A DNA stretch of 40,924 bases from Erysipelotrichaceae bacterium (GTDB lineage: Bacteria > Bacillota_I > Bacilli_A > Erysipelotrichales > Erysipelotrichaceae): positions 1 through 40,924 of the forward strand of contig JAAXXT010000020.1 in assembly GCA_013334325.1 (NCBI GenBank), written 5' to 3'. Shown here one piece after another: positions 30,065 through 37,033 of the stretch (positions are counted from its first letter, which is position 1; the number at the start of each line of letters is the position of its first letter). The notes below the pieces were generated by a model, which did no database searches, was not told where the DNA came from, and saw only the letters and a program-made list of their open reading frames with translations. Position numbers and translations under genes: made by a program.

Positions 30065-32074
30065 ATGAAGACAATATTTAAAATAATATCTAGATGTGCT
30101 TTGGTTATTATTATGGCTTTGGCTATTTTGTCGTCTTTACCTGTAAGAAGTGCCTTTGCGCTAGGATTTGCGGGTGGAAGTGGATCAGTAGGAGATCCAT
30201 ATCAGATCAACACAATGAATCAATTGAATATGGTTCGCTATGGATTGGGTTATAGTTATATCTTAACGGCCAATATTGATTTATCTGACGCTACCGCAAG
30301 TGGTGGTCTCTATGATAATGGTGGTAAAGGATGGCAACCTATAGGTGATTCAACGACTCCTTTCACTGGAAACTTTGATGGGGGAAGTTATACCATTAGT
30401 GGACTCTATATCAATCGTGTAGAATCCTCAGATGCTTATACAGGTTTATTCGGATATTTGAGTGGAGGATCCATCACAGATCTCATCTTAGATGGAGAAG
30501 TTCATGGGTTTATGTGGACCGGAGCACTCGTTGGGAAAGTTAGTGGAGGTAAGGTTGAAGGTGTTACAAATAATGCGGATGTTACATCATATAACGCTTA
30601 TGGAGGAGGCATTGCTGGATCTTTGGTTGGAACAAATGGAGTAATCTTAACTTGTATCAATAATGGGAATATTGGATTCGCACCTAGTATCGCAACTGCA
30701 TGGTCAATTGGTGGTATTGTTGGGGCTGTTGATACAGAAGCCCATATATCAGATGCCATAAACAATGGAAGTGTATTAGGGGCTCAATATATAGGAGGTA
30801 TTGCAGGGTCGATCAAAGGAACTGTTGAATTATCAACCAATTATGGACAAGTCGATGGACAATGGGCCATAGGTGGAATCGTTGGTGGAGCTGATGTGGA
30901 TTCACTCACCGCCTTATCGATAAATCATGGAACGATAACTTCTGAATATGATTATGTAGGAGGTATTGTAGGGGGTGGTAGTGGAGTCATCTACCTATCG
31001 ATGAACTATGGAAGCATTAATTCATATTCAAACTATATTGGCGGGATCATTGGCGGTAATGGGATTGGCGGACGAGTCAGCACAGTGATCAATTATGGAA
31101 ATGTGCTATATCTTGGCTCAAGTACAGGATTGATCTATGTAGGTGGTATTGCGGGTGTCAATCAAGACGCTATCACTAACGCTATGAATTTTGGACGAGT
31201 CGATAGTACGGTTGTTTCAGGTGGTGTTGTCGGAGGAAACGATGTAAACGGACTTATCCTTAATGTATCAAATTCCGCAAGCGTAACTGGTGGAGGATAC
31301 TCAGGAGGTATCGTAGGTCGTAATCAAGGCTTAGTTCAAAACGTCTATAGTCTAAATACCAGCGATGGGGCGATGACCCTAGGATCACCATCACTTGGCT
31401 ATATGATAAGTGGGGATGTCTTGGGTTCAATCATTGGTTTCAATAACGGAACACTAAAACAAGCTTATTCATTAGGCAATAGTATAAATAAAGTAGGAGA
31501 AACAGATAGTTCATCTGTGATCGAAGACGCAGATCTCTATTTCAAAGGCAAAAATCTAATTCTATATAATAATAGTGACGACAGTGTTTTAACTCAGAAT
31601 CGCTTATTGGTCAATCGACTAAGTGATAATAGTGAAGCCTATAATGAGCTTGAGGATGAATTGATTATGACCTCATGGAATCTCGGAGTTCTTGAAGAGT
31701 ATGATTTCCCAACGCTTTACACAGAGGCTCGCATTCATTATTTCAGTATCATTTATTTCGCTAATGGATCAACTGGGACAGTACCTTTTGATGAAACGAT
31801 CTATGTGGCTGGAGATAGTGGAACCATCTTAGGAAATATGGATCTTGCGATCACTGATAAGGTATTCAAAGGATGGAATCATCAAGCGGATGGTTTAGGG
31901 ACAGGATATGAACTTGATGATACTTATGAATTCATAGATACTGATCTAAATTTATATGCTCAGTTTGAAGCTCCTCTTCCTGATACAGGTAGATCATCAG
32001 ATGTCGGGGGATTATTCTTAGTTATAGGTGCAGTATTAATGATCATCAGTAGAAAAAGAAACTCACAAGTGTGA
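30065..32074 (+). CDS. sortase-anchored LPDTG surface protein with beta-helix repeats
   Basis: A 669-residue secreted protein. A signal peptide covers about 1-33 (positively charged start, then a hydrophobic core ending in ALG). The segment GSVGDPYQINTMNQLNMVRY opens a beta-helix region (about 40-450) whose repeats end in GGIVG or GGIAG (at least nine copies), GLUG-like. Residues of about 570-635 form one Listeria-Bacteroides (InlB B/Flg_new) repeat, ending VFKGWNHQADGLGTGY and LNLYAQF. LPDTG at 638-642, a hydrophobic helix and the basic tail RKRN are a textbook sortase signal. It is therefore anchored to the wall and probably adhesive. It implies a class A or similar sortase elsewhere in the genome. 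Confidence 0.92.
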   Translation: MKTIFKIISRCALVIIMALAILSSLPVRSAFALGFAGGSGSVGDPYQINTMNQLNMVRYGLGYSYILTANIDLSDATASGGLYDNGGKGWQPIGDSTTPFTGNFDGGSYTISGLYINRVESSDAYTGLFGYLSGGSITDLILDGEVHGFMWTGALVGKVSGGKVEGVTNNADVTSYNAYGGGIAGSLVGTNGVILTCINNGNIGFAPSIATAWSIGGIVGAVDTEAHISDAINNGSVLGAQYIGGIAGSIKGTVELSTNYGQVDGQWAIGGIVGGADVDSLTALSINHGTITSEYDYVGGIVGGGSGVIYLSMNYGSINSYSNYIGGIIGGNGIGGRVSTVINYGNVLYLGSSTGLIYVGGIAGVNQDAITNAMNFGRVDSTVVSGGVVGGNDVNGLILNVSNSASVTGGGYSGGIVGRNQGLVQNVYSLNTSDGAMTLGSPSLGYMISGDVLGSIIGFNNGTLKQAYSLGNSINKVGETDSSSVIEDADLYFKGKNLILYNNSDDSVLTQNRLLVNRLSDNSEAYNELEDELIMTSWNLGVLEEYDFPTLYTEARIHYFSIIYFANGSTGTVPFDETIYVAGDSGTILGNMDLAITDKVFKGWNHQADGLGTGYELDDTYEFIDTDLNLYAQFEAPLPDTGRSSDVGGLFLVIGAVLMIISRKRNSQV

Positions 32075-32088
32075 GTTTCTTTTATTTC
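32055..32088. terminator. bidirectional terminator between LPDTG gene and XRE gene
   Basis: AAAGAAACTCACA (32055-32067) is perfectly complementary to TGTGAGTTTCTTT (32070-32082). T-rich tracts follow on both strands, and both convergent stop codons lie in or next to it. Confidence 0.8.
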
Positions 32089-32459
32089 GATTGATAAGCT
32101 TCTACGATGACTTTGGTGACTTGATAGAGTTGATGACTTAAGGTATTGAGTTGATCTTGAGTTAGGTTAGGATCAATATTGAATAATGAGAGAAAGGTAT
32201 TGGATTGTGTGACTGATGTTAAATAGTCTTCTGGAGTTTGATAAGGTGCTGACTCTTCAGAAACGTTGGATTGTCCTAATAAGACATCCAAAGGGACATT
32301 CAATGCTTTTGCGATCTTGATCAAAGTATCAGGATCAGGAGAAGCGGTTCCTGTTTCCCATTTATGAATGGTCTGTTGAGAGAAACTCAAACTTAAACCA
32401 AGCTCTTTTTGCGTCATGTTGCGCCATTCACGGAGGCGTTTTAACCTTATATTGAACAT
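32082..32459 (-). CDS. XRE-family helix-turn-helix regulator
   Basis: A 125-residue repressor. Residues 1-62 form a complete Cro/C1-type HTH: RLKRLREWRNMTQKELGLSL, then SQQTIHKWETGTASPDPDTL with the recognition helix, and IAKALNVPLDVLLG. The C-terminal 60 residues (TPEDYLTSVTQ to VTKVIVEAYQSK) are helical and probably dimerise the protein; no catalytic motif or phage-type peptidase is seen. GAGGGG precedes the ATG. It is divergent from the small gene at 32573, and two similar 19-base sites lie in the shared region, so it probably represses itself and that gene. Confidence 0.88.
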   Translation of the reverse strand: MFNIRLKRLREWRNMTQKELGLSLSFSQQTIHKWETGTASPDPDTLIKIAKALNVPLDVLLGQSNVSEESAPYQTPEDYLTSVTQSNTFLSLFNIDPNLTQDQLNTLSHQLYQVTKVIVEAYQSK

Positions 32460-32479
32460 AAAACCCCTCTTTCGTTTTG

Positions 32480-32508
32480 ATTATACTACCATGAGTTGTT
32501 TCAAATAA
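32480..32508 (-). promoter_or_regulatory. XRE gene promoter with operator 2
   Basis: On the minus strand the -10 TATAAT is at 32480-32485, with TTATTT 17 bases upstream. The 19-base site ATACTACC-ATG-AGTTGTTT (32483-32501) overlaps the -10 and resembles operator 1 at 32543-32561. Confidence 0.55.
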
Positions 32509-32537
32509 AAGTAAACAACCAAACGGCTTATGTGCCC

Positions 32538-32566
32538 TTGATATACAACCTATGGTTGTATATAAT
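32538..32566 (+). promoter_or_regulatory. promoter of the unknown small gene with palindromic operator 1
   Basis: TTGATA (32538-32543) and TATAAT (32561-32566) are 17 bases apart. The whole spacer is occupied by the perfect palindrome TATACAACC-TAT-GGTTGTATA (32542-32562), an ideal repressor site. The ATG follows six bases after the -10. Confidence 0.8.
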
Positions 32567-32572
32567 TGACCC

Positions 32573-32947
32573 ATGAGACAACAATGGTGGGCACTGTTAA
32601 GGATAATAAGTAGGCGATTAGGCTTTCGTCGAACGGTTTATAAGAAGCTTCGTTTTAAGATAATATCTAAGCTTTTCAAAGGGATTGATATAAGATCTTA
32701 CGATGAGATCCAAGTTAATACCTTGTTTATACGTTTGATCAATTCTTCAGGTGTTCTTGAAATGGATCACACTTATTTTCCATTAAGCGACGCTGAACGT
32801 GAATATCTCAAAGATCTCTTGATTTTACGCTTACCATTAAAAACAATCATCGAAACGCATTATGAAAATAACCTTGATTTAACGCATCAACTTACATATT
32901 GTTTCATAAAACCACCTGTGGCTCTTTATCGTGACCCTCATCTATGA
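32573..32947 (+). CDS. small basic protein of unknown function, repressor-controlled
   Basis: A 124-residue protein I do not recognise. The first 35 residues are strongly basic (RRLGFRRTVYKKLRFK) with tryptophans near the start and could bind nucleic acid or a membrane surface. The remainder is mixed (YFPLSDAEREYLKDLLILRLPLKTII) with no transmembrane segment. There is no Shine-Dalgarno; the perfect -10 box ends six bases before ATG 32573, predicting a leaderless message. The promoter is fully covered by a palindrome and the gene faces an XRE repressor, so it is expected to be silent until that repressor is released. Confidence 0.65.
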   Translation: MRQQWWALLRIISRRLGFRRTVYKKLRFKIISKLFKGIDIRSYDEIQVNTLFIRLINSSGVLEMDHTYFPLSDAEREYLKDLLILRLPLKTIIETHYENNLDLTHQLTYCFIKPPVALYRDPHL

Positions 32948-32953
32948 TAGAAT
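32945..32953 (+). promoter_or_regulatory. extended -10 promoter of the tsaC-rpiB fusion
   Basis: TG-A-TAGAAT, hexamer 32948-32953, followed by AGGAGG (32967-32972) and ATG 32977. Confidence 0.55.
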
Positions 32954-32976
32954 ATTGAGGATAAACAGGAGGAGCC

Positions 32977-34038
32977 ATGGAAACAAGAATTCTGAGACAA
33001 AACCAGATGAACGATGTACTCCAAGATCTTCACCTAGACGGTGTTGTGGCTTTCCCAACTGATACAGTATATGGTTTGGCTGTGAAGCTTTCTTCACCAA
33101 CAGCTATACTAAAATTAACCCAAGCTAAAAACAGACCTTTAGATAAACCTTATCCTGTTTTAGTATCCTCATTAGAACAAATCGAATCATTAGCCCAACT
33201 AACTCACCGGGACCGTCAACTCATTAAACAATGGATGCCGGGTTCGGTGACTTTTGTATTTAAAAAGAACCCACAAATTCAAAGTGGATACTTCGCAGAA
33301 AGTGAAACGATTGCGTTTAGATGTCCTACGGATATATGGATCAAGGAATTACTAGATAAAGTAATGGAACCTCTATTATTGACCAGTGCGAATATTTCTG
33401 GAGATCCTGCTTGTGTGACTTCAGATGAAGTCATAAAACATCTCTCAAGAAAGATTGACTGTGTCATTGAGGGCCATGCGGGTGGGGGTATCCCCTCTAC
33501 CATCATCGATGCATCGCATCTCGATTTACAAGTAATACGAAAAGGAGAAGTAAGTATGAACGACATTCTAAAAACATCCAATACTGTAGCCTTGGCTTGT
33601 GATCATGGGGCTTATCCTCATAAAGAAGCCATTAAAGCCCGTCTATTAGAACTAGGCTATATCGTAGAAGACTTTGGGACCAAGGATGGAGCTGCGGTAG
33701 ATTATCCAGATACTGTTTATCCAGCCGCTAAATCTGTCAGTGAAGGAAAGAATACATGGGGAATCGTTTTATGTGGGACAGGGATAGGCGCCAGTATTAC
33801 CGCCAATAAGGTCAAAGGCATTCGTTGTGCCTTGGTCTTTGATCAAGAGACCGCTAGAATTACTCGTGAACACAATGATTCCAATATCTTAGCTTTAGGA
33901 GGAAGATTGACAGATGTCCAAACCGCGGTAAAGATCGCTGAGATTTGGTTAAGCAGTCCATTCTCAAATGATGAACGTCATATTCGTAGAATCAATAAAG
34001 TTAAAGACATCGAAAACAAGGAGAAAACCGGTGAATGA
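32977..34038 (+). CDS. fusion of threonylcarbamoyl-AMP synthase (TsaC/YwlC) and ribose-5-phosphate isomerase B
   Basis: A 353-residue fusion. Residues 1 to about 193 form a Sua5/YrdC domain: [36 protein letters not shown] and [13 protein letters not shown], the site making threonylcarbamoyl-AMP for the t6A base of tRNA. Residues from about 200 form Rpi[17 protein letters not shown], then [21 protein letters not shown] and [11 protein letters not shown], isomerising ribulose-5-P and ribose-5-P. No stop separates the two, but an ATG at 33556 has AAAGGAG eight bases before it, so free RpiB (160 residues) may also be made. In Bacillus the two lie in the same cluster, ywlC to ywlF, as separate genes. 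glyA overlaps its end. Confidence 0.92.
33541..33558 (+). promoter_or_regulatory. internal ribosome binding site and start for free RpiB
   Basis: AAAGGAG (33541-33547), eight bases, then ATG 33556-33558, in frame at residue 194 of the fusion, just where the RpiB domain begins. It encodes a complete 160-residue RpiB ending at 34038. Confidence 0.6.
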
Positions 34039-35967: not shown

Positions 35968-35982
35968 ATGCCGAACTTATGA
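35968..35982 (+). other. possible four-codon leader ORF overlapping atpI
   Basis: ATG CCG AAC TTA TGA: the stop overlaps the atpI start as ATGA. No Shine-Dalgarno precedes either ATG. The mini-ORF may be chance; if real it would be read leaderless and would couple to atpI. Confidence 0.25.
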
Positions 35983-36335
35983 AAATACTCTTTGGAGACA
36001 AGAAAAACTATGTCCTACTTTTTGGGGCTCTGATTACACTGACCCTGCTTCTTATCAACAAAGCGTATGGACTTGGTTTTTTATCGGGATTGGTCATTTC
36101 GATCTTCAATACTTGGTTGATAGAAGGCTATAGCTATCGCATCTTAGCTTCAAGAGAATATCGTTCATTTCCTGGATTTCTGTTTTATATGTTTAGAAGT
36201 TTTCTCTTAGTCATACCGTTTATTCTTACTCTAGTTTGGCCAGAATTGATCAATATCTTTGCGGCAGTGTTTGGAATCTTATACTTTAAGATACTCCTAT
36301 TTGCTTCAGTCTTGATCCAGAAAAAGGAAGCTTAA
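35979..36335 (+). CDS. atpI: ATP synthase subunit I
   Basis: A 118-residue membrane protein with four hydrophobic segments, the accessory AtpI protein that helps assemble the c ring or supplies magnesium in other species. Its identity rests on its position as first gene of the atp operon, length and topology; the sequence itself is poorly conserved in this family. FLSGLVISIFNTWLI resembles the GxxxSxxN pattern of subunit I. It lacks a Shine-Dalgarno. It overlaps atpB by one base (TAATG). Confidence 0.82.
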   Translation: MKILFGDKKNYVLLFGALITLTLLLINKAYGLGFLSGLVISIFNTWLIEGYSYRILASREYRSFPGFLFYMFRSFLLVIPFILTLVWPELINIFAAVFGILYFKILLFASVLIQKKEA

Positions 36336-37033
36336 TGTTCAATTTCTTTGGAATTCAATTACAGATCGAACTTATCAGTATGCTCATCGTTTTGAGCGTT
36401 ATTTTTACTTTTCTCTATTTCATCAATAAGGAAATAAAAAAAGCTGATCCTCTTGCTAAACCTACACCTTTTTTAACGGTAGGTATGGTCTACTATAAAC
36501 TCTTCAAGGGTTTGGTTAGAGACAATATGGGTAAGAAAGCCAATAAGAACTATGAACCTTATATCGCTGCTTTGGCTATGTATTTGTTTATAAGCAACAT
36601 TCTTGGTTTATTTGCCTTGCCTTCACCTACAGCGAATTATAGTGTTACTTTAACCTTAGCTCTAATTACCTTTGTATTGATCCAATATACAAAAATCAAA
36701 ACCAATTCATTTAAAGGATATCTATTAGGCTTCTTTCAACCTTTCCCACCTTTTGTGATTATGAATGTTTTTGGGTTGATTGCCCCGTTGATTTCTATGT
36801 CCTTGCGTTTATTTGGAAACATTACCAGTGGATCTGTATTGATGTTGTTGTTCTATACCTTTACCCAATGGGTATCAAAACTGATCTTGCCTTTTGTAGA
36901 TTTCAATTTCATTGGGATCGCAACGGCACCTTTCTTACACTTATACTTTGACCTATTCGCTGGATTCATCCAGACCTACATATTTATTAGTTTAACTACG
37001 ATCTTCATTGGGATAGAATTACCCCAAGAATGA
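36335..37033 (+). CDS. atpB: ATP synthase F0 subunit a
   Basis: A 232-residue membrane subunit forming the ion half-channels. The essential arginine is R158 in SMSLRLFGNITSG, followed by the conserved asparagine N162. ISNILGLFALPSPTANYSVTLTLAL is the typical TM3-4 region. It starts at the overlapping stop of atpI and is followed by atpE after 25 bases with a good ribosome site. It partners with the c ring, whose sequence points to sodium coupling. Confidence 0.96.
   Translation: MFNFFGIQLQIELISMLIVLSVIFTFLYFINKEIKKADPLAKPTPFLTVGMVYYKLFKGLVRDNMGKKANKNYEPYIAALAMYLFISNILGLFALPSPTANYSVTLTLALITFVLIQYTKIKTNSFKGYLLGFFQPFPPFVIMNVFGLIAPLISMSLRLFGNITSGSVLMLLFYTFTQWVSKLILPFVDFNFIGIATAPFLHLYFDLFAGFIQTYIFISLTTIFIGIELPQE

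Follow-up and report, generated by a model that had tools for sequence, protein, structure and literature searches.

Two divergent genes, separated by 113 bp, lie within the window, by which we mean the whole 40.9-kb stretch of DNA that was analysed (contig 38 of the 1.95-Mb genome G000). One encodes an XRE-family repressor and the other, which we call the partner, is its putative target. The features of the locus, in window coordinates, are the following.

32054..32083, plus strand: terminator-like hairpin with T/A flanks on either side, lying between the gene for a 669-aa LPDTG protein and the XRE gene's end.
32082..32459, minus strand: XRE-family repressor gene, 125 aa, with an N-terminal 434-like HTH (about residues 4–63) and a C-terminal tail of about 60 residues, without a peptidase domain.
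32464..32469, minus strand: ribosome-binding site of the XRE gene, GAGGGG, read from the sequence.
32480..32485, minus strand: -10 element of the XRE promoter, TATAAT on that strand, read from the sequence.
32485..32499, no strand assigned: weak operator (predicted), ACTACCATGAGTTGT, overlapping the XRE -10; in the relatives G007, G216 and G217 a site lies on this -10 with an unchanged register.
32515..32529, no strand assigned: tentative third operator, a possible degenerate copy, ACAACCAAACGGCTT, at the exact midpoint between the strong and the weak one.
32538..32566, plus strand: partner promoter, TTGATA (32538–32543), 17-bp spacer and TATAAT (32561–32566), from which transcription is predicted to begin at 32573, the A of the ATG.
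32541..32563, no strand assigned: strong operator (predicted), a perfect inverted repeat ATATACAACC-TAT-GGTTGTATAT with arms of 10 and a loop of 3; its 15-bp core, ACAACCTATGGTTGT, is at 32545–32559.
32573..32947, plus strand: target (partner) gene of 124 codons, matching no known family, called from the ORF, family searches and dN/dS.

The pair is bordered on one side by prmC and an LPDTG surface protein, and on the other by a sua5-rpiB fusion and two genes that we take, from their own sequence, to be glyA and upp. No phage or mobile genes were found among these neighbours in the ORFs of the window, and the initial annotation was right to describe phage-repressor logic without other phage genes beside the pair. 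Only 29 bp, without a terminator, separate the partner ORF from sua5. An Rfam scan gave no match at the locus; elsewhere in the window a NiCo riboswitch (RF02683) lies at 547–629, scoring 48.8 bits against a gathering threshold of 37.

Some of the surrounding genes are of interest in their own right. The 669-aa protein (30065–32074) is a repeat protein with a C-terminal LPDTG sorting-like signal, and its gene evolves faster than its neighbours (dN 0.051 vs 0.005–0.015 for prmC, sua5-rpiB and upp). Sua5 (threonylcarbamoyladenylate synthase) and RpiB form one fused ORF, at 32977–34038 in the window, in G000, G001 and G002 and are separate in G004, G005 and G007. Further along (window 35979–37033 vs L005:7704–8764), G000 and G001 share only 39% identity in atpI and 57% in atpB, with about 81% in atpE and 76% in atpF, against 94% in the DNA upstream as far as upp; either recombination has replaced this stretch or the bin contig is chimeric.

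By comparison with its closest relative, the small partner gene is real. It is conserved at full length and 93% identity in the sister species G001, as the initial annotation's reading of the ORF called for, with dN 0.043 and dS 0.210, a dN/dS of about 0.20 that indicates a translated ORF; the corresponding values for the XRE gene are dN 0.010 and dS 0.284. The changes between G000 and G001 are clustered, mostly at 32714–32788 in the partner and 32127–32331 in the XRE gene, so that recombination may have made a mosaic of the pair, and these ratios are approximate. The protein has 20 K+R and 13 D+E (pI 9.7), and its first 37 residues hold 12 K+R and no D+E. It had been described as an Arg/Lys-rich protein of 124 residues: the length stands, but the richness is confined to residues 1–37 and does not hold for the whole. 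An amphipathic N-terminus was considered and rejected (P=0.84).

Family searches bear out the claim that the partner belongs to no known family. Nothing in Pfam rose above the cut-off (best E 0.13), NCBIfam, PHROGs and PADLOC gave no match, and neither did the PDB when searched by profile. No HTH family matched at E<=1 in Pfam, NCBIfam or PHROGs, which argues against a Cro protein. The structure model is poor (pLDDT 47), and a distant fold could remain unrecognised behind it. Weak matches were judged to be chance in 19 genomes besides G000 and G001 (E 0.004–0.1), in 25 besides G007 in a second partner search, in nine besides the five that carry the pair in a profile search, and in four further genomes, where the best (E 8.7e-6) fell in what we take from its sequence to be an SbcC-like coiled coil. 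Matches of 14 residues in Verrucomicrobia (L006/L007) were likewise dropped as partner relatives.

The partner promoter scores 11/12 and is the best of four promoter-like matches in 31900–33100, a region whose shuffles give 4.5 such matches of any score. Its spacer is exactly TACAACCTATGGTTGTA, held within an inverted repeat that is one of only five perfect ones in the window (arm >=9, loop <=3); a perfect palindrome filling the gap between the -35 and -10 of the gene at 32573 had been noted previously, and with arms of 10, a loop of 3 and a 17-bp spacer it is indeed there. Searching for the 17-mer TACAACNTATGGTTGTA at up to three mismatches returns three matches in the window, namely the strong site on both strands and a weak site at 32484–32500, which is the degenerate copy reported to overlap the repressor's own -10. 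The same pattern has a mean of 0.35 matches in the shuffled window, and 0 of 100 shuffles reach three. The operators had been called as paired 19-base sites; the pairing stands, while the length is better given as a 15-mer, ACWACC-N3-GGTWGT.

The initial annotation also placed a perfect -10 six bases before the ATG with no ribosome site, and both points hold: TATAAT ends at 32566, and the 18 bases upstream of ATG 32573 contain no Shine-Dalgarno sequence. The next in-frame ATG, GTG or TTG is codon 51, and 32573 is the only sensible start codon of the partner. Given where the -10 ends, promoter geometry suggests an mRNA that begins with the A of the ATG.

The XRE protein is a clear member of HTH_3 (E=6.8e-18, 64.9 bits vs a gathering cut-off of 23), as are the proteins of its relatives (62.4 and 59 bits), and identity across the three lineages has drifted to about 35%. 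Residues S27, Q28, Q29, I31, K33, W34 and E35 of the recognition helix are invariant in five of five XREs, and their common helix, S-Q-Q-[TS]-I-[HA]-K-W-E, aligns to TQQSIEQLE of the 434 repressor. Gln28 and Gln29 of the 434 repressor make their contacts to the half-site at its ACA end. The half-sites here start with ACA or ACT, and the Gln-Gln helix start fits a 434-like reading of ACA-type half-sites, as judged from sequence. Elsewhere in the family, SQQ-type helices are also present in XREs such as those of L113 and L114, where the only sites have two or three mismatches and do not lie between the XRE and a divergent gene; the helix by itself is therefore not enough to specify the site. The closest sequence matches in the PDB are ICEBs1 ImmR, CylR2, P22 c2 and the 434 repressor; a PDB fold search with the XRE structure model (pLDDT 64) returned nothing at E<=0.001 (best 0.45). 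Neither an S24 domain (Pfam) nor an adjacent metalloprotease gene (window ORFs) was found.

The same cassette occupies the same place, after prmC and before sua5/rpiB, in five of the 90 genomes checked, belonging to two genera (G000, G001, G007, G216 and G217); comparison of these genomes thus gives it a fixed genomic place. The 90 comprise 30 loci and 60 stretches downstream of prmC, some of them ended by contig ends, and among the 30 loci those of G000 and G001 stop before the XRE gene, the pair there being known from separate sequence. In G007, of the same genus, an XRE gene (35% identical overall, 41% over residues 6–102) follows prmC and diverges from a 168-aa ORF, after which comes rpiB. 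In G217 and G216, of the genus g61, XRE genes (36% and 34% identical) follow prmC and diverge from a 101-aa ORF. A profile search of 266 genomes of the family places these five XREs at the top; G217 and G216 were outside the profile, which contained the other three. As to whether XRE genes always accompany partner homologues, the two occur together in five of five loci, the partner profile being built from these same five; a weak XRE match at L193 (E 2.4e-9) has no partner by profile. Nothing occupies the pair's place in G004 and G005, and the incomplete genomes G003 and G006 gave no prmC match. G002 carries there a 111-aa ORF (L010:1017–1352) that looks DsrE-like by eye. Gain and repeated loss would explain this distribution equally well.

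The control region shows the same layout in all three lineages: two 15-bp copies of ACWACC-N3-GGTWGT at intergenic positions 26/86 (G000), 18/76 (G007) and 28/86 (G217), with spacings of 60, 58 and 58 bp. Using a motif derived from G000 alone, ACAACCNNNGGTTGT, two sites were found in the G007 intergenic region at up to two mismatches (0 of 3000 shuffles give two) and two in that of G217 at up to three mismatches (0.27% of shuffles). On the strand of the XRE gene, the site keeps a single register relative to the -10 throughout, ACAACTCATGGTAGTATAAT in G000, ACAACCTAAGGGCGTATAAT in G007 and ACTATCGTGGGTAGTATAAT in G217, which is consistent with the proposed autoregulation. The second site lies within the 17-bp spacer of the partner promoter in G000 (TTGATA-17-TATAAT) and in G217/G216 (TTGACA-17-TAGGAT, where the spacer holds ACAACCCACAGTGGT). 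The strong site of G007, with one mismatch to the 15-mer and none to the 17-mer, is farther from the partner ATG, and a candidate promoter TTGTAA-17-TACGAT, read by eye, ends six bases before that ATG. Retention of the operators in three lineages argues for the pairing of repressor and operator, and a layout shared by such distant relatives looks like a real genetic off-switch. The near-identity of the intergenic region between G000 and G001 (2 of 113 bp differ) is not usable as evidence, because the prmC-LPDTG spacer is equally conserved (1 of 82).

The initial annotation had called the target leaderless. This is plausible for G000 and G001 and possibly for G007. The partner in g61, however, does have a leader, and in G217 a GGAGGG ribosome site stands before its ATG, so leaderless translation is not a defining feature. 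Between the two sites, the best additional match falls midway in all three lineages (starts 56, 48 and 57; mismatches 4, 5 and 4; joint P 0.0002 on shuffled spacers); the midpoint idea was formed after seeing the data, and a third operator is therefore a lead only.

The 17-mer TACAACNTATGGTTGTA occurs without mismatch in three of the 266 family genomes (G000, G001 and G007), only before this XRE gene. Another 22 one-mismatch matches in the family are mostly intragenic, none lies beside an XRE relative, and they were set aside. L131 has a 17-mer site with three mismatches about 200 bp before an XRE gene. The 15-mer at up to one mismatch is found at 5–15 places per genome in the eight genomes tested (15 in G000), too often to define a regulon. 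An exact ACAACCTTGGGTTGT at L262:1953–1967 (G000:C46:31752–31766) precedes another XRE gene by about 50 bp; the helix encoded by that gene is SEQAVSKWE, its frame is open to the contig end, and the gene is absent there in G001. The site may mark a second target, in which case it would not be private to this regulator, or it may be chance.

The partner is hypervariable. Relative to G000, full-length identity in a forced alignment is 93% in G001, 15–20% in g61 and 25% in G007, and the G007 protein has three to four TM-like segments (maximum KD 2.2), with none in the other two types. In pairwise and leave-one-out HMM searches the other types rank 8–494 of 973 ORFs, under unrelated ORFs, in a set that is biased since some of its loci were fetched as weak matches; these tests do not support common descent. 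A three-way ungapped block of 28–34 residues, FPLSDAEREYLKDLLILRLPLKTIIETH / FRLKQSEIHYIKKRILKSGGSRWKCETR / FELMEKEIIWLSRQVVLRSKLLKKIEMK, first picked by eye, scores above all of 2000 shuffles and all of 2000 real-protein triples when 28 or 34 residues wide; at width 20 its score is reached by 11 and 7 of 2000, and at width 24 by 5 of 2000 shuffles. An earlier real-protein control, in which 10 of 300 reached the block score, still held homologous genes and was replaced. On balance, we lean towards common descent of the three types.

Among known systems, ICEBs1 ImmR and CylR2 are, like the present protein, stand-alone XRE repressors. ImmR acts together with the protease ImmA, and CylR2 has CylR1 as its companion in the same operon; neither type of companion was found here. 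The likeness to lambdoid and phi11 cI-cro regions lies in the divergent genes, the 15-bp operators overlapping both promoters and the XRE repressor with a 434-like helix; in phi11, three operators of 15 bp lie between the divergent genes cI and cro (PMC3991615). The differences are that no phage surrounds the pair, the partner is not a recognisable Cro or HTH protein and the repressor has no S24 domain. PaaR2-YdaS of the cryptic prophage CP-933P shares a cI analogue, a divergent intergenic region (97 bp) and a leaderless mRNA (PMC8630535); there, however, it is the regulator that is leaderless, in a prophage with a TA operon, whereas at the present locus the leaderless gene would be the target, which stands alone. 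The 933W repressor has been modelled on 434 (PMC3317979). A title search of the open-licence PMC literature found no comparable repressor-target pair. The locus had been put forward as an undescribed system. That holds for the target only: the regulatory half follows ordinary cI-type logic, and the novelty lies in the target, in how variable it is and in the fixed site outside any prophage.

The cI-like domain and the operators could also mark a decayed prophage or ICE immunity region, with the XRE as a former cI and the partner as a leftover early-gene product. Phages do carry related repressors: the best matches, in Listeria phages, are 41% identical over 70%, and some XRE relative occurs in 409 of 50,697 phage records. 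However, the neighbours include no phage or mobile genes, the partner was not found in phages, viral contigs or plasmids, and none of the 51 viral contigs with the exact operator (17-mer) carries such an XRE gene. With the same chromosomal place kept in two genera and both genes under purifying selection, we consider a decayed element improbable.

A toxin-antitoxin-like pair, in which the XRE protein both represses and neutralises a partner that is toxic when free, strikes us as equally hard to credit. XRE proteins are often antitoxins, ours has weak NCBIfam matches to antitoxin models (all under cut-off), and the partner is basic, small and fast-evolving. Against this, type II pairs normally form one operon and these genes are divergent with separate promoters, the partner matches no TA, toxin or defence family (Pfam, NCBIfam, PADLOC), and there is no sign of contact between the two proteins. 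That the XRE protein chiefly regulates sua5-rpiB-glyA-upp, the small ORF being a leader passenger, would suit the short terminator-free gap before sua5 but is very improbable, as the dN/dS marks the ORF as translated, a hairpin followed by a T-run separates the partner from the next gene in G217 (by eye), and G002, without the pair, keeps a similar TTTATCG...TGATAGAATATTG before sua5 (by eye), as if sua5 had its own promoter.

We therefore favour, as the probable reading, a free-standing, autoregulated 434-like repressor with a stand-alone target outside any prophage. An XRE dimer would read the ACWACC half-sites through its 434-type recognition helix; bound at the 17-bp spacer of the partner promoter it would block RNA polymerase and keep the 124-aa gene off, perhaps as tightly as predicted earlier, and at the weaker site on its own -10 it would limit its own level. 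Loss or inactivation of the XRE protein would lift repression. As the repressor lacks an S24 autoprotease domain and has no metalloprotease gene alongside, the trigger is probably not RecA-driven cleavage but something that binds the helical tail at its C-terminus. The derepressed mRNA would begin at or next to the ATG and could continue into sua5-rpiB, because no terminator lies between. The partner would be the output of the cassette, a fast-evolving small effector, possibly at the membrane in view of the TM-like segments in G007, although a membrane-linked role is doubtful.

A bolder and rather unlikely reading is a fixed-site chromosomal switch, in which a constant control end (the XRE gene and a three-site array in steps of about 29–30 bp) is kept across genera while the output is exchangeable, the silenced gene being replaced or remodelled nearly beyond recognition; the versions seen are a soluble 101-aa, a soluble basic 124-aa and a membrane 168-aa protein with TM-like segments. 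Such exchange, if true, would be expected of an arms-race locus, for example in competition or phage defence.

The three diverged XREs with their matching operators provide a compact, testable repressor-operator set in uncultured bacteria, and the locus points to a small, putatively silenced and fast-evolving protein family that is absent from the libraries searched. If the output is not a defence or competition factor, the pair would simply add to the free-living relatives of phage repressor circuits; if it is, the operator would allow such genes to be found and switched on.
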